Below are positions 2,104 through 60,577 of a stretch of 64,000 bases of DNA, piece after piece. The stretch's first letter is position 1, and each line of letters opens with the position of its first letter. A program made the position numbers and the translations under genes. The notes below the pieces were generated by a model. That model was not told the origin of the DNA and made no database searches. It saw nothing but the letters and a program-made list of their open reading frames with translations. The DNA is taken from contig OY759224.1 in assembly GCA_963662175.1 (NCBI GenBank), positions 20,159,489-20,223,488 of the forward strand. Reading direction: 5' to 3'. This DNA is from Aradus depressus (taxonomy: Eukaryota; Arthropoda; Insecta; Hemiptera; Aradidae).

Positions 2104-2930
2104 GAAGTATAAGGGATGTTATGTAATCAGTCAAAAATTCGATGTAGAGTTTTCAACCTCCAGATGAAAAGTAATGTCTGTCTGTGCGTCTGTGTGTCTG
2201 TGGACATGATAACTCCCGAAAGAATGAATGTATCGACATGAAATTTCATATGTAAATTACAAGTCGTAATCGGCCGAAGAGAAGAGGATGATAAGAGTGA
2301 AGGCTCAAATCAAAACCACAATAACTACCGAAGTAATGAATGCATCGACGTAAAATATTAGTTAGTTATTGTGACTCATGCCCGGGCTTTAACTACGAGG
2401 TCATATCGCCTACTACCAGAGCGCTCTTTCGTCACTCTGGTGGACATGAGCCCGACTCTACTGTGGGAGTCCTAAATTTTGCCTACCCTAAATTTTTATT
2501 CATCTAGGTTAGGGGTTTTAAACGAGTACTTGACATCGTACAGGCTCGGGACCATCGCTTAACGTCCCATCCGAAGGACGGCATGCTTGAATTTATTTTA
2601 CCACCCAGATAAAATAAACTAAGAGCCTCAGCCCGGAGCTCAGAAGGCAAGCACGCATACCACTGAGCTACCGACGCCCTCCGTGTAATATTATACTTAA
2701 ATTCAAAACCCCATAAAAATGACATCTATTAATTTTTCGGAAAGGGGTAATCAGAATGGGGTTCAAATCAAAAACCCCAATAAATGACGACCTAATGAAT
2801 AAATCAACACAAAATTTAGTATAAGAATTCCAAAATTGTTTTTAGAGGGGGAGCGACAACTTTATTGATTATTTTGTGTTGGGGAAGTACATTGTCTGTC
2901 ATTTATGGTCGGATTTTTATTTTGCAGCAT
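2104..2930 (+). repeat. Q dispersed repeat, split by an S1 SINE
   Basis: This Q copy starts at GAAGTATAAGGG and runs through the typical CTGTGTGTCTGTGGACA block and the 'ATGAATGTATCGACATGAAATTTC' type block (written in parts elsewhere). It ends near GTTGGGGAAGTACATTG at ~2880-2896. It is interrupted at 2358-2682 by an S1 SINE. Q has no coding capacity that I can defend. Its superfamily is unknown to me. Confidence 0.65.
2358..2682 (-). mobile_element. S1 tRNA-derived SINE
   Basis: This is a near full-length S1 copy in reverse orientation. The tRNA-like head lies at the right end (CACTGAGCTACCGACGCCC is the reverse complement of the A-box region). The B-box segment is partly deleted around 2625-2640. 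The 3' tail on the left reads as (TAAC)n-type sequence. AATATTA occurs at both edges and may be the TSD. Confidence 0.85.
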
Positions 2931-3135
2931 TGTCCTGGTCGTAAGGGGCTGTCCCACTTATCTATAGTTTTGTAACACCAGGTTTACGCCAGGTTCTACA
3001 GTTAGTATATAACAATCTGTGTTTCGTTCAATCGAATACCTTTTACAAGTAATAGTTCTATGTCAGATGGAGGTGCTCATTACGTACAATATTATAGTTA
3101 ATTTATCGTATTATAAATTGTGTAAATTTACATTG

Positions 3136-3293
3136 TGAAGAGATAAGCGATGGTCTCGAGCCTGAACTCGTTAAAAACCCGTACCCTAAGTGGAAAAAAT
3201 TTAGGTGGCTCCCATAGTAGAGTCCGGCTATCCAGCAGAGTGACAAAAGAGCGCTCTGGTAGTAGGCAATGGAACTTTGTAGTAATAATAACT
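3136..3293 (+). mobile_element. S1 SINE, 5'-truncated, split by a LINE
   Basis: The 3' half of S1 (GATAAGCGATGGTC through GAGCGCTCTGGTAGTAGGCAA) is followed by GTAGTAATAATAACT at 3279-3293. The remainder (AACTAACTAAACT) resumes after a LINE insertion at 4728-4750. The head is missing. Confidence 0.85.
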
Positions 3294-4727
3294 TTTTTTT
3301 TTTTTTTTTTTTTTTTCTCGGGTGCTCCGGTTAATCACCCGGCCCGTTTTTTTTTTCGTCGGGGAATGAGGATACATGACATGGTTATGCTAAATTTATT
3401 TATTTATTTGTTGCTGTGGGTGTCTGGGGGCGACAGCCTCTGGTCCCTTGCGGGACAAACTGGCGCTCCCAGACCCCCGTGTTGCGGCTGCCAGATGGCG
3501 CCGAGAGAGCTCAGGATCTTGGAGTGGGGGCTGCTACTACATCGCGGTCGCCGGGGGTAGACATCGGGCCGCAGCCCGTCAATCGCCCCCGGCGCCGGGT
3601 CAAGCGGGCTTTTTCTGTTCCCGCCAGGAGGTGACAAACCGGCCGAACGCCGGATAGTTCGACTCCGTCATCAACTCCGGCAGGCTCAATCCCAGATATG
3701 ATCCTGTCGCGCGGATCAACTCCACCCTAGACCTGTCGTACAGCGGGCAATCGAGGACCACGTGTTCTGCAGTCTCGATGCCGCCACACGAGCAGTTTGG
3801 GCTATCCTTCCTCTTGAAGAAGAAGAGTTTGGAGTTGAAGTCGCCGTGACCTGATAGTACCTGGGATGTCCAGTGATCGGGTTGTACCCAAGTGGAGCGC
3901 AGGCGGACCTGGACGTCAGGGATGTACGCGAATGTCGTTCGGCCATCGGAGGAGCGCGACCATCGCTGTTGCCACTTGTTCATTATCCAGTCTTGGACCA
4001 TGTCCCTGCAACGCTCTGGTCCGTTCTGTCTACGTAGCTCACCCTCCAGGGCGAGGCGCAAGGGCTCATCTATATCTGCTCTCAGGGGCAAATTGCGTCT
4101 ACAGTAGTACGAGGCGACCGACCCGTCCAAGACCAAGTCTATGGGCGGAGCTCCCGCCAGCACCTGTAGCGCTGCTGTGGAGACAGTACGATAGGCCTTT
4201 GTGACTCTCAGGAGGGCGGCTCTTTGGGCCTGTAGCAGTCTCGTTCTCTGCTGCTTGGTGGGGCGATACCACCACCCTGCAGCAGCGTACCGTGCTACAG
4301 CCTCGAATACCCCCGTGTAGATTGTTCTACACGCTGAGTAGTCGAGGCCCCATGTTGCGCGACTAGGCGGCTCAGAGCGTTGAAGGTGGCATTGGTCCTT
4401 TCCTTGATGGCAACAGCGTGGGGAGTCGCGCTGAAGCCCGAACCCAGTCTCACACCTAGGTATGTGACCGCCTCCGGGAACTCAACGCGCATCCCCCGGA
4501 TCCTCAAGGAGAAGGGGTGGCGGGCGTCGGTTTTCCCTCTCATCAGCAGGGCCGTAGTCTTGCTTGGTGAGAGGGCCAGCTTGTTGGCGCAGCACCAGCT
4601 GTCGACGAAGTCGATGGCGGCTTGGGCTACGCGGGTCAGAGCTGCCCGGCTATCAGCGTGCACCGTGATTGCGAGATCGTCAACATAGGCAATAGCCTTA
4701 TATTCACGACTCTCGAGCTCACGGAGC
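3294..4727 (-). mobile_element. R1-like LINE insertion with 15-bp TSD
   Basis: A minus-strand, 5'-truncated LINE is bounded by a perfect 15-bp TSD, GTAGTAATAATAACT (3279-3293 and 4728-4742). Its poly(A) tail appears as a T-run directly after the left TSD. The insert is clearly more GC-rich than its surroundings. The 3' UTR spans ~3317-3599. The insertion landed inside an older S1 SINE, so the LINE is the younger event. Confidence 0.93.
3600..4727 (-). pseudogene. LINE ORF2 C-terminal part (reverse transcriptase plus zinc knuckle)
   Basis: Reading leftward from 4727, the first codons encode the RT palm motif YVDD (AIAYVDDLAITVHAD, ~4650-4690), so only the distal part of RT survives. The frame continues through LALSPSKT and TYLGVRLG, then is broken by a one-base shift near 4345-4360. 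It resumes as a second frame (ending at 3600) that includes the cysteine-histidine knuckle CSCGGIETAEHVVLDCP, about 50 residues before the stop. RT with this terminal knuckle and no RNase H fits R1/Waldo-type elements. Most of ORF2, the endonuclease and ORF1 are missing, so it cannot be active. Confidence 0.88.
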
Positions 4728-4749
4728 GTAGTAATAATAACTAACTAAA

Positions 4750-4955
4750 CTATGACGTTTTGGAATTAAGGAGTCGGAAAACATGAAATTCCTTTGAAAA
4801 CGCCTTATTAAATTTTTATGTTAAGCCCTCGTCAATCCTCCCTTTTCTTATTATAGATTTGGTTGAAATCAATAGATATCAGTTCTTATAATGGTCTGGA
4901 TACACATATGAGCTCCACCTCCATCGTTTCAGGATATTTGAAGAGGTGCAACTCT
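4750..4955. other. Unassigned AT-rich spacer
   Basis: No gene, RNA or repeat terminus is recognised between the split S1 SINE and the following MITE. Confidence 0.3.
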
Positions 4956-5242
4956 GAATTGACGGGGTTAGAATCACAGTGGTCTAAGTGACATTTGCTG
5001 TTAGCAAACCATAACATTGAATAAAAAATCTTAATTTCAAGGTCACTATTGATATGTTTAAGTTACTTGTTCATGTCACCAAAATGGAATAAGTGATTTG
5101 CCACTAGATCTCAGCACTGACTAGGATTTCACTTGTACAACTTTTTTGCTGAACAGAACTATCATTTTTGTACCCGATTATGATGCACTTAAAATGTTCA
5201 AAAATGTCACTTGGGCCATTCTGATTCTAACCCCGTCAATTC
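4956..5242. mobile_element. 287-bp MITE with ~40-bp terminal inverted repeats
   Basis: The left end reads GAATTGACGGGGTTAGAATC and the right end is its reverse complement. The similarity continues inward to AAGTGACATTT for about 40 bp with mismatches. The interior is non-coding and AT-rich. If the TIR starts at AATTGACGG, CTG flanks both sides as a possible 3-bp TSD. The superfamily is not assigned. Confidence 0.75.
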
Positions 5243-5470
5243 TGCCAACACCTCCAAAAAACAGGACATGAGGCCTGCTCAGTCTTGTTGCAACACCAGA
5301 TCCGAAAAAGTAGAAAAATGGATTTCTTAGAAAATATAAAATTAAATTCGAAAGGAAGAAGGAAAATTTTAAATTGGTAAATTGTTTTTTAATTAGTTTT
5401 TTATGTGCGTTTATTTTAATTTTTATAAAAATCTTATTTTTAAAACATTCTAAATTATGTTATTTTCATA

Positions 5471-5516
5471 TTTTTGCCTGATGATGAGGACAAACTCGAA
5501 AGCCGGCTAGCAAAAA
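5471..5516 (+). ncRNA. Hammerhead-ribozyme-like motif, subfamily B
   Basis: Stem I is TTTTTGC (5471-5477) with GCAAAAA (5510-5516), seven pairs. The core CTGATGA (5478-5484) is followed by one extra T, stem II GAG/CTC (5486-5488/5495-5497) and GAA (5498-5500). Stem III is AG/CT around a CCGG loop (5501-5508). The predicted cleavage site follows A5509 (UA). An AATAAA-like stretch (CCAATAAAATG) follows within 15 nt, then GTGAGAGGTCAGAC, which is common to subfamily B. The fold and residues match the minimal type I hammerhead consensus; activity is inferred. Confidence 0.7.
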
Positions 5517-5570
5517 ACCAATAAAATGTGTGAGAGGTCAGACTATATCTTATTTTACAACCTGTGTATC
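5517..5570 (+). repeat. Distal part of hammerhead B element
   Basis: The sequence GAGAGGTCAGACTA, then TTATTTTACAACCTGTG, also follows the hammerhead core in the copies at 29512-29640 and 36907-37430. It marks this as a truncated member of the same dispersed family. Confidence 0.7.
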
Positions 5571-6015: not shown

Positions 6016-7010
6016 TATATAAACATGAGTTTATGAAGATCAAAAATGATTTCCCCGACGCAACGTTTATATATACGGACGGGTCAAAAAACCCTAACGG
6101 AGTAGGAGCTGCGGTGGTTTTCGATGAGAGGATCTACCTATTTACCCTTCCTTCAATGTGCAGCAACGTGACAGCGGAATTATTAGCTATTGGCAAGAGT
6201 CTGAACGTCTCTGTCCCCAATGGAAGCCAACTGATAGTCTGCAGTGACTCCCTGTCGGCTCTATTGGCCATGGGGAATCTGTATTCAGAAGATCTCCTTG
6301 TCCAAAATATACTGATGGCCCTATGGTCATTAAGAAGAAACCAGACTTCAGTTACCTTCCTCTGGATCCCAGGTCATTGCGGCATTGCAGGTAATGAGTC
6401 AGCAGATAAGAATGCCAGGCGCGCCATACTAGAAGGACTTCGTTGCCTACATCAAGGAAAGAGTTTGGATCAAATGGTAGATTCGGTGGCTCGGTATGAC
6501 GGATAATAAGCTAAGGACCATCAAAAGCTCCACTCGAGTTTGGAACACCTCAATAAGAGAAAAAAGGAAAGAAGAAGTAATTTTAACTCGGTTACGTAGA
6601 GGGCAGAGCAGGCTGACCCCTGGATATCTGATGGGTCGGGAACCACCTCCTCTGTGTCAGTGCTGCGGGGTGGGACTGTCTGTCAGACACATTCTAACTG
6701 AACGCATGGCATAAAGTCCCCAGCGTGAAAATTGCAACCTTGCGGTGGACATTTCCGAAATTTTATCCGATAATATCTTCCAAATTACCCAACTATTTCA
6801 TTTCTTGCAATTCACAAACCTCTTATTTAAATTATAAAACAAAATTATCTTCATCACATAGCCTTTCTATTCCATACACATCTCCTTTATTATTATTAAT
6901 CTGCGCCTATCCAAATTAGCCCTCTAAGATCCCCAGAGACCTGCATCCATCAGGCATCCATGACCCTCGTGGTCGAAATGCCTTAAAGAAGAGAGAAAAA
7001 AAAAAAAAAG
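6016..7010 (+). mobile_element. LINE fragment with RNase H (I-like group), 3' end with A-run
   Basis: A 5'-truncated LINE remnant consists of an RNase H domain, the distal zinc knuckle and a 3' region running to an A-run near 6995-7009. RNase H downstream of RT is typical of I/LOA/Ingi-type LINEs. No clear TSD was found. Confidence 0.75.
6033..6837 (+). pseudogene. LINE ORF2 RNase H domain and C-terminus
   Basis: Codons from 6033 encode an RNase HI fold with the expected acidic residues: D in IYTDGSK, E in VTAELLAIGKS, D in CSDSLSAL and D in GNESADKNAR, with WIPGHCGIAGNE before the last. The frame shifts near 6495-6506 and continues (6496-6714) to the knuckle LCQCCGVGLSVRHILTE. A deletion and another frame change remove the region around the CP motif. 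The terminal helix LAVDISEILSDNIFQI is still readable and stops at 6835-6837. RT is absent. The catalytic set is intact, but the ORF is broken and has no start of its own. Confidence 0.88.
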
Positions 7011-37037: not shown

Positions 37038-37331
37038 AGTCTGATAAAAATTTAAAAATTTTGAATAGAACTAAATAATGTAATAAAAATAAATAAATAA
37101 CAATCTAAAACATTAACAATTTAAAATATCATGGATGGGGACAGACGAGTTATCCCTGTGCACCATCTGAGTCACAACTGGGAGAACGGTGTACGTGAGA
37201 CTGGACAAACCTCCCATCCCCTCTCTAGAGTTTAATTTTTTATCAGGTATGCTTAATCAAAAATTGTTTTTAATTATTTATCTTTGCTATTTATATTACA
37301 TATTATATTATGGATGGTTCTTTTGTAGACT

Positions 37332-40687: not shown

Positions 40688-40953
40688 GGTTGAACTACAA
40701 GGTTATATCGCCTACTACCAGAGTGCTCTTTCGCCACTCTGGTGGACATGAGCCCGACTCTACTATGGGAATTCTAAATGTTGTCTATCCTAAATTTGTA
40801 TTCGTCTAGGGTAGGAGTCTCTAACTCGGAACCATCGCTTAACCCCCATCCGTTGGATGGCGTGCTTAAGTTTATTTTACCTCTCAGATAAAGCCGAGTT
40901 TCAAACCCACGATCTTGAGCTCAATAAGCAAGCATGCATACCACTGAGCTACT
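40688..40953 (-). mobile_element. S1 SINE (duplicated with the left arm)
   Basis: The reverse S1 has its head truncated at GAGCTACTCTTTTC. Its partner at 51324-51640 retains a complete head, which shows the deletion is specific to this arm. Confidence 0.88.
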
Positions 40954-41285
40954 CTTTTCATAGATACATTTAAAACTCCATAAGGAGGACATGTATTAAT
41001 TTGGTACGGAATCTGACGAAGGGATGAGGAGGTTCAGAAGAGGACGGCTTAACACAAAAATACTAATAAACACAGTTGTAAGAAAATTATTGACACAAAA
41101 TTTCATAAGTAAATTCTAAACCCAATAAGGACATTTCCTGTCAATTTTCCTCGACATAATCCAAAGGGAACGGTTTTCAAAGACCCTAATAACTAGCGAT
41201 GTATCGGTTTTAGAAAGATAAAAAGCACAAATTGATTGATTTGTTCTGGGGAAGTACATCGCCGGTGTTCCACCGACGACATAGT
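40954..41285 (+). repeat. Q repeat in left arm
   Basis: Q units end with TTCTGGGGAAGTACATCGCC and a degenerate hairpin GGTGTTCCACCGACGAC at 41248-41280. Confidence 0.7.
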
Positions 41286-41329
41286 TGTGCCAGTTATCTT
41301 CCAACCGCTGTGCTGTGTGGGTGGGATGA

Positions 41330-41371
41330 ACCACTGATGATGACGCATATGCGTCGAAAACCAGTTCTGGT
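41330..41371 (+). ncRNA. Hammerhead-ribozyme-like motif, subfamily A
   Basis: Stem I ACCA (41330-41333) pairs with TGGT (41368-41371). CTGATGA is at 41334-41340, followed by one extra T. Stem II GACGC/GCGTC (41342-41346/41351-41355) has an ATAT loop. GAA is at 41356-41358. Stem III AAC/GTT with a CA loop is at 41359-41366, and the predicted cleavage follows C41367 (UUC). Every invariant hammerhead residue is present. Then come ATAAATAAAAC and GTGGGAAGACAACG. Confidence 0.72.
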
Positions 41372-41482
41372 ATAAATAAAACAGTGGGAAGACAACGTCT
41401 TTTATTTCTACATGGTTGTGAAGTTTTTAGTCACGTGGTGCATTGTAAGAGCTAAGTGACCGTGTAATCTGTTATCTGGTTG

Positions 41483-42254
41483 TAGTGTTGGCAAAAATTT
41501 AGTTTGATTGACGATTAAAAACTAAAACAATCGTAATTAGTTTAACTGACGATTGACGATTGAATTAGTTTTAGTCGTATAAAAAATTGAAATAATGATT
41601 GAATCAATTTTAGTTTTCAATGTTGATTAATAATTTGATTACAATACTAATGTCGAGGAAATTGTAAAGTCTACGAATTATTAAATTAGACAAATGGTTT
41701 ATTCTTTTATTAGTCATTCATACATGGAATGCAAATAACAATATTTTCATATTTTTTATTTATTTATTCTTTTACTAGTACAGCACATATAATCAAACCG
41801 TCAATGATTTCGATTCATTATATTTAAATTGCTTTTCATGACGACTCTTTTCTCAAACACCTCATCAGATAGTTTGTGTGATTTCGGTGAGTTGTAGTAG
41901 CATAGGAAAACATTCTTACAACAGGTCCCGATGACGGCATAGGCTCTGTAGCTAACAATGCTTTGTATCAATATAATAGACCCTTTCCAGGTAGTGACAC
42001 ACACAGCGATACAATGTGCTAATAAAGAATTTGAATTGAAAGAACTTGAGTAATTTTTAAGAGTTTAAAATTGTATTGCGTTGTGTCAGTAGTTACTAGA
42101 AGGTACAAGGTCGGTTCATTTTCTGGATAATATTTTATTGCCTCGTTTTCAAATACGAAAAATATCTTTTTAGTTAAAAAATTAATCCAAACTAAAACTA
42201 ATAACTAATGATTACTCAATTTTAGTAGTGACTAAAACTAAATTATCAACTCTG
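41483..42254. mobile_element. Non-autonomous hAT element with 8-bp TSD
   Basis: Ends TAGTGTTGG and CAACTCTG, with the similarity extending to AATTTAGTTT, lie between two copies of TCTGGTTG (41475-41482 and 42255-42262). The opposite arm of the inverted duplication has the uninterrupted TCTGGTTGTAATCGAG. The interior has many ACTAAAACTAA-like subterminal repeats and no transposase. Confidence 0.9.
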
Positions 42255-45887: not shown

Positions 45888-47320
45888 TATATTTATTGTA
45901 CAAGACATCAAACTTATTTATGGTTTCTTTTGACCGATTGTAAATATATATAATAATAAAAGATGACCTGATAACTATCGATGTAATAAATGTATTCATA
46001 CATAATTTTGTATGAAGATTCAGAAATCCATAAGTAAATCAATTATTGATTTTCACATGTTCAATTGATTTTTGAACAGATCAAAACTTAATTGATTTAT
46101 TTGTTATAACCAAAAAACTCAACATTAAATTTCTGACCTACTACATACCTTCCCGTATACCTTTTACAGCAGCGGAAGTAATAAAACAGAAAGAGTTTTT
46201 TGAAAATGAAAAATTACTATTTCTTCTATAACTGATATCATAATGTATTTTTCATGTAGTGTTCAATTGGTTTTTCACATGACTGAGAAAGACAGAATTC
46301 GTCATAGTGCGTGCTCCTGTCAAGAAACCATATTTAACTGAGTTATATGAAGTAACTCACCACAATATTCGAAGTCAACGTTTTACTTCATCAGCTACAC
46401 AAAGTATAGGGTAAGTTATCGGTTAGAAATTTCATGTTTTCCGATTTCCCGGTTTGAAAAATGAAAAAAAAGAAAAGTGTGTGTATGTAAACACAATACT
46501 TCCCAATAGAATAAATGTATCCACACGATATTTTATGTGTAGGTATCTAAAATATATTCAGCCAAATCATTTGCTCCATTTAACACAAAAACTATTATAA
46601 CTGCCTTTGTAATGAATCCATCGACACAAAATTTCATAAGTAAATTTAAAATTCCGTAAGGACAACATATATCAATTTTCAGCAGAATCGGCTGAAGAAA
46701 AAGGGGGGATAGGAAGGAAGACTCAACTCAAAAATCTCATAACTGCCGATGTAATAAATATATCGATATAAAATTTCATATTTAGAGTTATAAGCCCATG
46801 ATATTATTTGTCAAATTGAAGCGAAATCGGCCGAAGGAAAAGGGCGGTTCAGGGGAGAGGCTTATTTCAAAAACTCTCTGTATGTATAGACACGAAATTT
46901 CATATGTGAATTTAGAACTCAATAATGCCGAAATTTGGTGGAAACGGTAAAAATTAAGGAGTGGGGGTGGAGTAGGGCTCAAGGAATGTAGAGTTAAAGC
47001 ACCATGAGGACAACACGTGTTATATTTCAGCAAAATCGGCCGAAGGAAATGGGGGTTATTGGGAAGGATCAACTCAAAAATCCTAATAACAACATGTAAT
47101 GACAGCAATAGAAGATGTTGTCTTCCACTGTTTTATTTTTGACCAGAACTGGTTTTCAACGCAACAGTGTCATCATCAGTGGTACATGCCATCTACACAG
47201 AGTAGCGGTTTAAGAAAAACAATGCCAGTTGTAGACGTCTTTTATATTTAATGAATTTATCAACACAAATTCGTTCTGGGGAATTATATTGCCGGTGATT
47301 TGCTGACGACTATTTATTAT
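45888..47320 (+). repeat. Q repeat array
   Basis: A long, nearly continuous run of Q sub-units contains a fresh head at 46388-46450 (CTACACAAAGTATAGGGTAAG). It ends with TCGTTCTGGGGAATTATATTGCC, in part, at 47270-47292. The minus strand gives an ORF at 46788-47108 that simply reads Q sub-units. A degenerate hammerhead A copy interrupts it at 47115-47230. Confidence 0.7.
47115..47185 (-). repeat. Hammerhead A element, imperfect core
   Basis: Minus strand: ACCACTGATGATGACAC, then TGTT, GCGTTGAAAACCAGTTCTGG. CTGATGA, GAA, stem III and stem I (ACCA/TGGT) are intact, but stem II has a mismatch and a G-U pair. It is followed by AATAAAACAGTGGAAGAC. Confidence 0.65.
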
Positions 47321-50254: not shown

Positions 50255-50509
50255 TTTTACGAGGCCTCTGATAGTGTAGCCCGGATCTAGAGCTCCCCTC
50301 TCGATTACAACCAGATTACAGATTACACGGTCACTTAGCTCTTACAATGCACCACGTGACTAACAACTTGACAACCATGTCCTCGGTGGATCACCGGTAT
50401 TGTATATCCCCAGCACAAATTGTTCAATTTATTTATTCATATGTGATAGTAAGATGTTGTGGGACGAGATTTCTAATAGAAATAAAAGACGTTGTCTTCC
50501 CACTGTTTT

Positions 50510-50570
50510 ATTTTATACCAGAACCGGTTTCCGACGCAACAGCGTCATCATCAGTGGTTCATCTATCATA
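50510..50570 (-). repeat. Hammerhead A element, core mutated
   Basis: Minus strand: ACCACTGATGATGACGC, TGTT, GCGTCGGAAACCGGTTCTGG. Stems I and II are perfect, but A13 of the GAA core is G (CGGAAACC). This would be expected to abolish cleavage. It is the partner of the intact copy at 41330 in the opposite arm. Confidence 0.7.
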
Positions 50571-51049
50571 GAGTAACAAAAAATACAAATAATAAAAAGT
50601 ATAAATAATTCTTAAAGCATCAGGGTACAGAGTAAGAAAATAAAATCAACTTACCCCACCCACACAGCACAGAGTTTGGAAGATAACTGGCATAGCTCTA
50701 AGGGGTGGGGATAGCCAGGTTCACTCACTCTTTCTACATGCAAAAACCATTCATTCTAATAAATATAATAAGTCTGTACATAATATAAACATTTTTCATC
50801 ATATAGCCAAATAAATTATTGTTGTCATAAAATATATAAGAAATTTAAATAAATACATAAATAAATGCAATGTTAAAAATATTAACACAGACTTGAATTA
50901 AAATACATAATAAATATCATTATAAAAACCATCCAAAACATATTTACACTACATTTCTCACAGGACAGCTACTTCCCTTAGTTTGGGACCAATTTCTCAC
51001 ACCAGGCAGGTCAGGCAGCAGAAGAAATAAATAAATTTATTTGTTATTT

Positions 51050-54375: not shown

Positions 54376-54612
54376 CCTCTTTCTAACTAACCACTAGTGA
54401 ATTTTTACTTTCCCCCTCTTTCTAACTAACCACTAGTAAATATTTACTTTCCCCCTCTTTCTAACTAACCACTAGTGAATTTTTACTTTCCCCCTCTTTC
54501 TAACAAACCACTAGTGAATTTTTACTTTCCCCCTCTTTCTAACTAACCCCTAGTGAATTATTACTTTCCCCCTCTTTCTGACTAACCCCTAGTGAATTTT
54601 TACTCTCACAAC
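54376..54612. repeat. 39-bp minisatellite, six copies
   Basis: Six direct copies (starts spaced 39 bp: 54383, 54422, 54461, 54500, 54539, 54578 by the CTAACT/CTGACT landmark) of CTCTTTCTAACTAACCACTA, GTGAATTTTTACTTTCCCC. Single-base variants distinguish the copies. Confidence 0.95.
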
Positions 54613-55580
54613 TACACAAAGTTTAGAAGAATTTATGTCGTCAGACAGAAATTTGAAATTGAATTTTCACCGAAATTTCATTTTTCTGACACCCTGATTC
54701 CAAAAATGAAAAAAAAAAAAGTCCCCACTTCGAAATAATCAATTAACCTCTAGCCCCCCTCTCCAAAACCAGTCGAAACTTTGCGCTAATATTCAACAGT
54801 TGACTTACATAGATGCTCCAACTAATGACTTACATAGATGCTCCAACTAATGACTTACATAGATGCTCCAACTAATGACTTACATAGATGCTCCAACTAA
54901 ATAAATCCTCATACTAAATTTTGTATCGATGAATTCATTACCTTGGCAGGTTTTTGGCTTCTCCAATTTCCCTGAAAATTAATAGGTATTTTGGTCATGG
55001 GGGTTTGACTTTAAATATGAAATTTTATGTCGATAGTTTCATTACATTTGAAGTTATTGGGGTTTTTGAGTTGAGCCACCCTCTGATCCACCCTCTTCCC
55101 TTAGGCCGATTCCGCTGTAAATTGATGTGTCGTCCATATATAATTTTGAATTTACATAAGAAACTTTGTGTCGATACATTCATTCTCTCAGCAGTTATTA
55201 CAGTTTTTCTACTAAGTCTTCTCTGTGATCACTCTTTTCCTTTGGCTCATTTAGCTGAAACTCAATGGGTGTGGTCCTCAAACAGTATCGACAGGCCATG
55301 TTAAACGTGTACCCAGAACAGAAGGATGACACCTACTGATTTTCAGCAAAATTGGCCCAAGGGTGGTGGAATATTGGAGGGCTTAACACACAAACTCTAA
55401 TAAGAGTGTTAAGTAGCGAGGGAGCACAGTGAATTGATCTTCCGTCACTCATTTATATTCTCCTCAATTTTTGTAAGTACGAGAACAGGACTCCAAAACT
55501 TGTGTATCTCGGCCAAATCGGCCAAAGGGAAGGAGTTTTAACACAAATACTCTTATAACTGCCGTATTGCATATTTGCTT
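54605..55580. repeat. Q repeat composite in both orientations
   Basis: A plus-oriented Q head (ACACAAAGTTTAGAAG, 54605-54710) is followed by minus-oriented Q units (54730-55300), which create the ORF at 54954-55304, then plus-oriented units (55310-55570). It contains a 25-bp minisatellite. Confidence 0.7.
54801..54900. repeat. 25-bp minisatellite, four copies
   Basis: Four identical copies of TGACTTACATAGATG + CTCCAACTAA lie within a Q copy. The same position at 60000 has a single unit start (CAGTTGAATTACA), so the expansion is local. Confidence 0.95.
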
Positions 55581-59621: not shown

Positions 59622-60010
59622 TCACCAGCTATACGAAGTATTGCGGAAGTTATGTAATAGGTTAGAAATTGATGCTGGGAAGTTATGTAATAGGTTACGA
59701 ATTGATGCTGGAAAGTTATGTAATAGGTTAGGAATTGAGGCTGGGAAGTTATGTATTAGGTTGGGAATTGATGCTGTGAAGTTATGTAATAGGTTAGAAA
59801 TTGATGCTGTGAAGTTATGTAATAAGTTAGGAATTGATGCTGTGAAGTTATGTAATAAGTTAGGAATTGATGCTGGAAAGTTATGTAATAGGTTAGAAAT
59901 CGCTACTGAGTTTTCAAGGACAATATACTTCCCCAGAACAAATTAATCAATTATCTTTTCGCTCCCCTTCCAAAACCAGTGGACCGTTTACGCTAATATT
60001 CAACAGTTGA
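59622..60010 (+). repeat. Q repeat: head joined to inverted tail
   Basis: The Q head CACCAGCTATACGAAGTATTG is followed by the 33-bp minisatellite. It then passes directly to an inverted Q tail (ATATACTTCCCCAGAAC at 59921-59937), giving a foldback-like unit. Confidence 0.7.
59646..59908 (+). repeat. 33-bp minisatellite, eight copies, in frame
   Basis: Eight copies of GAAGTTATGTAATAGGTTAG + AAATTGATGCTGG. As 33 is divisible by three, one frame stays open and encodes an 11-residue repeat (KLCNRLEIDAG). The unit is the normal Q head segment (AAGTTATGTAAT.GGT..AAATTCGATG), so this is amplification within a repeat, not a gene. Confidence 0.93.
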
Positions 60011-60577
60011 ATTACATTTTCGATTGATATTTTTTCATCCTCCATAACATAGAATAATTTAAACTAGGTAGTTATACATGAAAAAATGAAAATAAAATAA
60101 TCATATTATAGTATAATATTGTAATTGGAAAGTATTTTGCATAAAAAGCGGCAACTTACTGAATAATAGATACTAACGATAGTTTTCCACCGATAGTATC
60201 GTACAATCGACATCGCTCATCCCTAGGTGTACCACTGATGATGATACAGTTGTGTTTAAAACGTGTTCTGATTGGAACTAAAACAGTGGGAAGACAACGT
60301 CATTTATCACTATATACTCGTATTAATAATATTTCACAAATGTAGTACATTCTCAGAAGTGGAGAATCAAGTTTCAAGTTGGTGTGTACATACCATTTTC
60401 AAAATGTACACACTTGAAATCAACTCAAGGCAGAACTTCTCCCTAATTTGTGACTTCTCACAATCCCATTCACAAAGTTATCTCCACGATCCTATCTATC
60501 TTCACCTAAGTTTTCCACTTGGGAACCCATCTCTTCTTCCAACGTTTTCCCTTCGCTTAGTTATTTCACTGAAAATA
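60011..60577. other. Unassigned, with hammerhead A remnant
   Basis: TACCACTGATGATGATAC at 60228-60245 begins a decayed hammerhead A copy (GTTTAAAACGTGTTCTG, core G lost), followed by AAAACAGTGGGAAGACAACG. The ORF at 60272-60580 has no domain. Confidence 0.45.

Follow-up and report, generated by a model that had tools for sequence, protein, structure and literature searches.

The DNA analysed here (the window) is a stretch of 64,000 nucleotides from Aradus depressus, located in C10 (G000:C10) of a 698-Mb genome. It contains a 121-bp insertion at 41290-41410, hereafter copy A, flanked by an 11-nt target-site duplication (TSD, one mismatch). The empty site is seen in a related host repeat: its copy at 50290-50436(-) can be aligned through the copy A insertion point and has no insert there. 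Copy A corresponds to one arm of a repeat family, the pseudo-LTR (pLTR) of a Penelope-like element (PLE), and relatives of it (copies B to E) occur elsewhere in the window. The features are as follows, L039 being a reference copy on chromosome C1:

12716-12769 (-): copy E, a decayed pLTR fragment (81% over 57 nt)
41279-41289: left TSD, ACATAGTTGTG, from the sequence and the empty site in the related host repeat
41290-41410 (+): copy A, a solo pLTR arm without the intron, 97% identical to the arm over 121 nt (arm positions 1-121), with TSD and empty site
41290-41325 (+): exon-1 segment of the pLTR, spliced junction 41325/41326, where L039 and copy B have an intron
41330-41371 (+): minimal type I hammerhead-like motif, predicted cut after C41367, from the sequence with the structure by inspection
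41337-41342 (+): two in-frame ATG codons overlapping CUGAUGA-U-G, from the sequence and by comparison with PMC11167929
41410-41420: right TSD, ACATGGTTGTG, with one mismatch; its first base is common to the element end
47104-47210 (-): copy C, a diverged pLTR fragment (85% to the arm) with its motif at 47142-47183, one mismatch in stem II
50436-51024 (-): copy B, a 5'-truncated PLE fragment matching unit positions 2681-2969 and 1-275
50517-50558 (-): hammerhead-like motif of copy B, found by the core pattern, with GGA instead of GAA
50563-50654 (-): 92-nt pLTR intron retained in copy B, GTAAGTTG...TATGATAG
60228-60313 (+): copy D, an older pLTR fragment (80% to the arm) with its motif at 60231-60272

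Copy B consists of ~290 nt of the unit 3' end followed by an unspliced pLTR that runs to the long end described below, and no TSD was found for it. In copy D, GAA has become TAA and stem I has one mismatch; stem II (GATAC/GTGTT) is still paired.

An earlier note on this DNA, made from the sequence alone, had read a complete hammerhead-like order at 41330-41371, and this was borne out: ACCA, CTGATGA, T, GACGC, ATAT, GCGTC, GAA, AAC, CA, GTT, C and TGGT follow one another, so that CUGAUGA, GAA and NUH stand in order together with stems I and II. The core pattern occurs at three places in the window (copy A, 47142-47183(-) and 50517-50558(-)) versus 0.09 expected from 100 shuffles. One extra U lies between CUGAUGA and stem II at 41330-41371; the textbook hammerhead core has one nucleotide fewer at this point. 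The folding model could not close stem III (3 bp with a 2-nt loop), and the best predicted fold of the isolated window RNA is other than the hammerhead. For the family consensus motif, AACCGGUU, the double-hammerhead dimer scored -31.7 kcal/mol vs -32.2 for the best dimer, and stems I and II of the monomer -8.6 vs -12.6 for the best monomer. These predicted energies favour a dimeric over a monomeric hammerhead.

The covariance-model search that the note had proposed returned no hammerhead: with Rfam, the window had no match at the gathering score, 41200-41500 none at E<=10, and the consensus-like copy L008 gave 13 matches at E<=10, none of them a hammerhead, where these models may miss minimal variants with a 3-bp stem III. 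The miRNA-model matches of L008 are attributed to its long palindrome. Covariation in the family stems was at shuffle level, since two pairs with double changes were found vs 0.9 in shuffles and 106/500 shuffles scored as high; the 36 rows compared (32 of 36 distinct family rows, after dropping the fragmentary L034, L080, L082 and L122, plus 4 window rows) were all chosen to keep CTGATGAT. The motif is fully covered in 129/147 arms, 98/129 of which keep the core and all stem I/II pairs, a proportion biased by the choice of many loci for an intact core. In the window, look-alikes of the form CTGATGATGAGGG-AAAC-CTCGAAAGCCGGCTAGC with broken stems II and I recur at 37330 (+) and similar places, and look like part of another repeat. 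The ATG codons within the hammerhead (arm positions 48-87) open a short frame that closes at a TAA in the common haplotypes, with a few family copies varying at this TAA; in L039, the main ORF resumes after the TAA in the same frame.

The family is dispersed. Of 1621 first-look candidates for a 155-nt region, 40 were scored and gave 75 matches, and exact searches genome-wide located a 31-nt core at 1313 places and a 32-nt downstream segment at 1995 places, each with 0 in the reversed control. L039 (G000:C1:335000-343500) combines pLTR, ORF and pLTR in one insertion: pLTRs at 2341-2595 and 5311-5530 enclose an ORF at 2519-4990 (824 codons stop to stop), and on the left side stands a head-to-head inverted pLTR with an ORF remnant. 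The whole insertion is flanked by AAGTACACCGCC and sits inside a gag-pol-like ORF. The L039 ORF encodes a reverse transcriptase (RVT_1, E=3.2e-10) and, at residues 735-775, a sub-threshold GIY-YIG match (E=0.033, 14.9 bits vs a Pfam cut-off of 22.6) that includes a GVY..YIG motif; a TAA stop lies in frame between the hammerhead ATGs and the main ORF. Among 7993 scored candidates, 25 proteins were related to it, the best-scoring at 36% identity; RT (PF00078) is listed for 20/25 and GIY-YIG (PF01541) for 4/25, and the three relatives that carry an organism name are all from insects. This pLTR borders an ORF that has RT and a weak GIY-YIG match, and on these sequence grounds the family is assigned to the pLTR of a PLE. 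Direct and inverted pLTRs with an optional tail (L039, and the short and long ends below), as well as TSDs in compact pairs and copy A, accord with this assignment. Thus, of the earlier proposal of a self-cleaving retroelement, the dispersed retroelement family stands, as a PLE; self-cleavage is taken up with the cut site below.

A pLTR intron of 92-93 nt is present in L039 and copy B and has no counterpart in copy A. Its boundaries read GTAAGT...TAG, one of the three L039 donors reading AT. Sampled junction contexts comprised 83 distinct spliced and 13 distinct intron-bearing ones (introns of 92-99 nt), 12/13 of the latter starting with GT in a search that itself required [GA]TA[AG]GT...TAG. 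Splice state was linked to the arm 5' end: none of the 52 spliced arms had sequence upstream of CCAGTT, which was present in 37 intron-bearing arms and missing from 4, 7 arms being left unclassed (tallies not deduplicated). This suggests that spliced copies come from mRNAs starting at CCAGTT and unspliced copies mostly from read-through RNA. Copy A would accordingly derive from the 5' end of a spliced PLE mRNA, and its segment appears to begin at the putative mRNA 5' end (CCAGTT) and to finish at the short RT start site.

The anatomy of the insertions was read from 136 loci, 128 of which lie on C1, with several overlapping and most picked by exact matches. They comprise the 8 best 155-nt matches, 30 and then 40 more from the 31-nt core list, 8 regions with wide pairs or a full PLE, and 30 and then 20 from the 32-nt segment list. 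A first parse, of 75 loci left once overlaps were removed, gave 45 compact head-to-head pairs, 19 arms standing alone and 11 loci arranged otherwise; among the compact copies parsed, none was a head-to-tail tandem of a small unit.

All 45 compact pairs had one short outer end (arm position 116-135) and one long one (150-165), the two end positions being ~38 nt apart. One of these, L034, has one unreadable side (end at 76) and was dropped; adding 17 pairs from further loci and L074 gave 62 pairs with both ends readable, 61 of which had one short and one long end. The exception, L074 (293-612), is the sole compact head-to-head pair seen with two long ends; it has no clear TSD (a 7-nt match lies in the element ends), and had initially been classed among other arrangements for the further pLTR fragments beside it. 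Nine wide pairs (L012 and L039-L046), outside the 62-pair count, also had one short and one long outer end in 9/9 cases. Among the 17 added pairs, L121 has a 201-nt spacer and the long arm of L108 and L133 is split by an insertion; the least clear end calls are L135 (long end at 143) and L094 (131/151). Of the loci left out of the tally, L105, L111 and L126 (interrupted or intron-bearing) each follow the short/long pattern, the readable ends of L099 and L122 (rearranged or nested) are consistent with it, and L123 is unreadable. The splice-state tally flagged L009 and L133 as same-end pairs; in L009, the inner arm continues into the ORF of the full PLE.

Exact TSDs of at least 11 nt (range 11-16 nt) flanked 41/45 compact pairs, with lengths of 12 nt in 22, 13 in 13, 14 in 3, 16 in 1 and 11 in 2; in the remaining 4/45 the TSD was shorter or not found. 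By BLAST arm limits, the junctions between the arms of the 45 pairs were blunt in 9, overlapping in 9, and contained fillers of 1-4 nt in 14 and 5-17 nt in 13. The short-end arm was the more complete in 28 pairs and the long-end arm in 15, with 18 ties (n=61; p=0.066). We had considered that a trailing polymerase might shorten the long-end arm; a stronger bias than this 28 vs 15 trend would be expected, and the idea was set aside.

We then compared the two arms of each pair. The exon-junction haplotype was concordant in 35/38 scorable pairs (of 61; 14.1 expected, 0/10,000 permutations) and the A-run haplotype in 42/47 (of 61; 19.0 expected, 0/10,000 permutations). Over all sites, arms differed by 2.97 within pairs vs 3.61 when shuffled (0/2000), a difference that was weaker with polymorphic sites only (276/2000, including gaps at arm ends) or with the remaining sites (127/2000). 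Splice state agreed in 23/23 scorable pairs of 39: 17 were spliced on both sides, 6 unspliced on both sides, 0 mixed and 16 not scorable. Since both arms are intronless in 17 of the 23 scorable pairs, the template was spliced sense RNA. The arms of L003 differ at both haplotype markers and thus come from different sources, which contradicts a strict single-RNA version; two RNAs must be possible. Altogether, paired arms seem to be two cDNAs, usually from one or from identical sense RNAs, that were primed from both target strands and end-joined.

If the RNA cut itself before being copied, arms might begin at the cut site, between C78 and U79 of the arm, and this was rarely seen. Among 131 arms with a 3' anchor, 107 fit the intronless arm (starts beyond position 36 being uninformative on splicing) and 24 the unspliced unit. 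The cut site was copied through in 117/131 arms, namely the 93/107 that start at or before 78 and 24/24 unspliced ones. Only 3/107 arms started at 78-80, with no pile-up at the cut site; arm starts are over-called where a mutation stops extension (L064 starts at 74 here and at 20 in the pair parse). Under a strict filter requiring four mismatching bases upstream, 2 arms genome-wide started exactly at 79, both from one element, and 0 at control position 76, three bases further upstream. In a search for palindromes near the cut site, which gave 82 places (reversed control: 54), the 50 that were listed included no exact cut-site junction; at C4:49450499, arms of variant sequence begin one or two bases upstream of the cut site. 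Two short head-to-head elements, L130 (380-523) and G000:C11:5495033-5495085, have both arms beginning at the predicted cut site and joined by 5-6 nt of filler; they could be copies of self-cleaved RNA, do not amount to an enrichment, and are too few to argue either for or against cleavage. Judging from the arm starts, the RNA appears to be copied in most cases without prior self-cleavage at the predicted hammerhead site. In agreement with uncut templates, hammerhead mutants of PAc, the Poseidon element of Anolis carolinensis, left in vitro insertion unchanged (PMC11167929).

Copy A is very probably a solo pLTR that arose when the 5' end of a spliced PLE mRNA was reverse-transcribed, starting internally at one of two sites. 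In this model, the PLE enzyme would cut the two target strands ~12-13 nt apart, and copying would start not at the RNA 3' end but at either of two internal sites near the ORF start, at arm positions ~124 and ~162. As both sites are near the 5' end of a one-unit mRNA, the cDNA would be only ~120-160 nt long; it would run through the hammerhead, which is carried within the copied segment and mostly uncut in inserted templates, and stop at the presumed cap site, CCAGTT. Where both target ends are extended, normally one per start site, microhomology or filler would link the two cDNAs close to their 5' ends into a head-to-head twin, whereas retention of a single arm would leave a solo copy like copy A. 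Longer unspliced copies with ORF sequence would come from read-through or tandem RNAs. We count against this explanation the TAA stop in the L039 frame, which obscures the start codon, the sub-threshold GIY-YIG match, the long/long pair L074 without a clear TSD, the differing arms of L003, the modest 28 vs 15 bias, and the sampling of loci mostly from the single chromosome C1 and by exact matches. A more general proposal, which we doubt slightly more than we believe, is that PLE integration is intrinsically two-sided and asymmetric: a dimeric enzyme would cut both strands, its two halves using different members of a neighbouring pair of start sites on the same or an identical sense mRNA, and an event carried to completion would give a head-to-head twin with one tailed and one tailless end, and the hammerhead would stay intact during integration, acting, if at all, outside it. 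L074 is the reason why we hold this reading less firmly.

Head-to-head arrangement around palindromes at the pLTR 5' end is the usual one here, and would also arise if a cDNA or an antisense RNA snapped back and copied itself; such self-priming likewise predicts common source haplotypes in the two arms, and it was proposed, with an antisense template, for rotifer Penelope elements in a paper that left unspliced sense RNA as a possibility (PMC3846280). We consider it unlikely in this family: snap-back offers no reason for the short and long ends of 61/62 readable pairs, the intron is absent from both arms in 17/23 splice-scorable pairs, which speaks against the antisense version, and neither the different haplotypes of the L003 arms nor the 5-17-nt fillers at 13/45 junctions fit it. 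Short and long ends, spliced arms and a shared source together argue against the published antisense self-priming and for two-sided target-primed reverse transcription from sense RNA. That the pairs are MITE-like DNA transposons with long terminal inverted repeats is scarcely credible; they do have long inverted arms, short length, many copies and TSDs, yet their unequal ends, loss of the intron, 5'-truncations and variable junctions point to reverse transcription, and the TSD length varies (11-16 nt in 41/45). We had at first thought of a schistosome-type SINE or a MITE, and gave up both ideas in view of the TSD, the intron and L039.

The motif itself invites two other readings. Metazoan retrozymes are small tandem units that would spread as circular RNAs excised by their hammerhead, and a type I hammerhead in a non-coding, high-copy sequence with a TSD >4 bp is common to them and to this family (PMC7229834). 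The retrozyme kinship that the earlier note had also allowed is nevertheless very improbable, as parsing of the compact copies gave single arms and head-to-head pairs, the unit belongs to an ORF-bearing PLE as its pLTR, and 117/131 arms cross the cut site uninterrupted. A more serious contender, though we judge it doubtful, is that the hammerhead-like motif plays no part as a ribozyme in this family and is a by-product of constraints that coding and priming impose close to the start of the ORF. The lack of excess among arm starts at 78-80 (3/107) and the shuffle-level covariation favour it; on the other side, the pairing of stem II in the diverged copy D (GATAC/GTGTT), although GAA is lost, and the two elements (C11:5495033-5495085 and L130) with both arms starting at the cut site count against it. 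So does the placement of the ATG at the stem II edge with the cut ~26 nt downstream: the anole PLE has a similar layout, and its hammerhead cleaves in the presence of protein (PMC11167929).

The presence of a minimal hammerhead in the pLTR of a PLE has precedents, to which this family adds another case: minimal type I hammerheads in PLE pLTRs were described by Cervera & de la Pena (2014) and by Lunse, Weinberg & Breaker (2017), as related in PMC7761336, and appear in PMC6155905 as well. As in the present family, the known ones are described as minimal, with no or a very short stem III, located in the pLTR and expected to act as dimers (PMC7761336), a review that calls their role unknown. Differences are the extra U after CUGAUGA, judged against the textbook core, and the very large number of solo and twin pLTR copies that lack the intron. 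PAc is a close parallel: its hammerhead lies where pLTR and ORF meet, the start codon being at stem II, and its ORF starts near the place that matches the ATGs at 41337-41342; two adjacent internal RT start sites define an optional tail, and both target strands are cut and extended, as in our model (PMC11167929). The ~38-nt end spacing also resembles the two RT start sites and 30-40-bp tail of PAc; the PAc results are mainly biochemical, whereas here the pairing of sites within single insertions is read from genomic copies (PMC11167929).

The Penelope elements of Adineta vaga share with this family head-to-head inverted pLTRs with a junction palindrome, solo pLTRs, and, as a further likeness, an optional 31-bp tail on one pLTR with a TSD of 8-10 bp, so that an optional tail on one inverted pLTR had already been described (PMC3846280). 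They differ in being few and in retaining the intron, which was read as a sign of antisense templates, whereas here copies are many and the pLTR intron is spliced out (PMC3846280). Metazoan non-LTR retrozymes likewise carry a type I hammerhead in small non-coding repeats, with head-to-tail tandems expressed as circles, while the copies parsed here are not tandem (PMC7229834). In the literature surveyed (including PMC12910113 in part, most subscription papers lying outside the survey) we found no report of the strict short/long rule or of spliced twins. PLEs are relatives of telomerase, and this family bears on the way in which they insert: from the ~2000 arms that match a 32-nt segment exactly, the splice state, start site, template identity and joining of each event can be read. 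Any genome with recent PLEs, like the in vitro system already available, would allow a test of the short/long rule and of the spliced sense template.

Other repeats are present in the window. A dispersed repeat at 40825-40952 (-), with about ten other places in the window, contains TAGCTCAGTGGT and GGGTTTGAAACTC, which we take to be tRNA-like A and B boxes on the basis of box motifs; it is probably, judging from these boxes, a tRNA-derived SINE, and ARAGORN found no tRNA. An RNase H domain at 6033-6506 (+) (4.2e-15) probably comes from a LINE. A search with a LINE-like ORF of the window returned no relative. Short tandem arrays with 25-39-bp units occupy 541-801, 54376-54604, 54801-54900 and 59645-59900.
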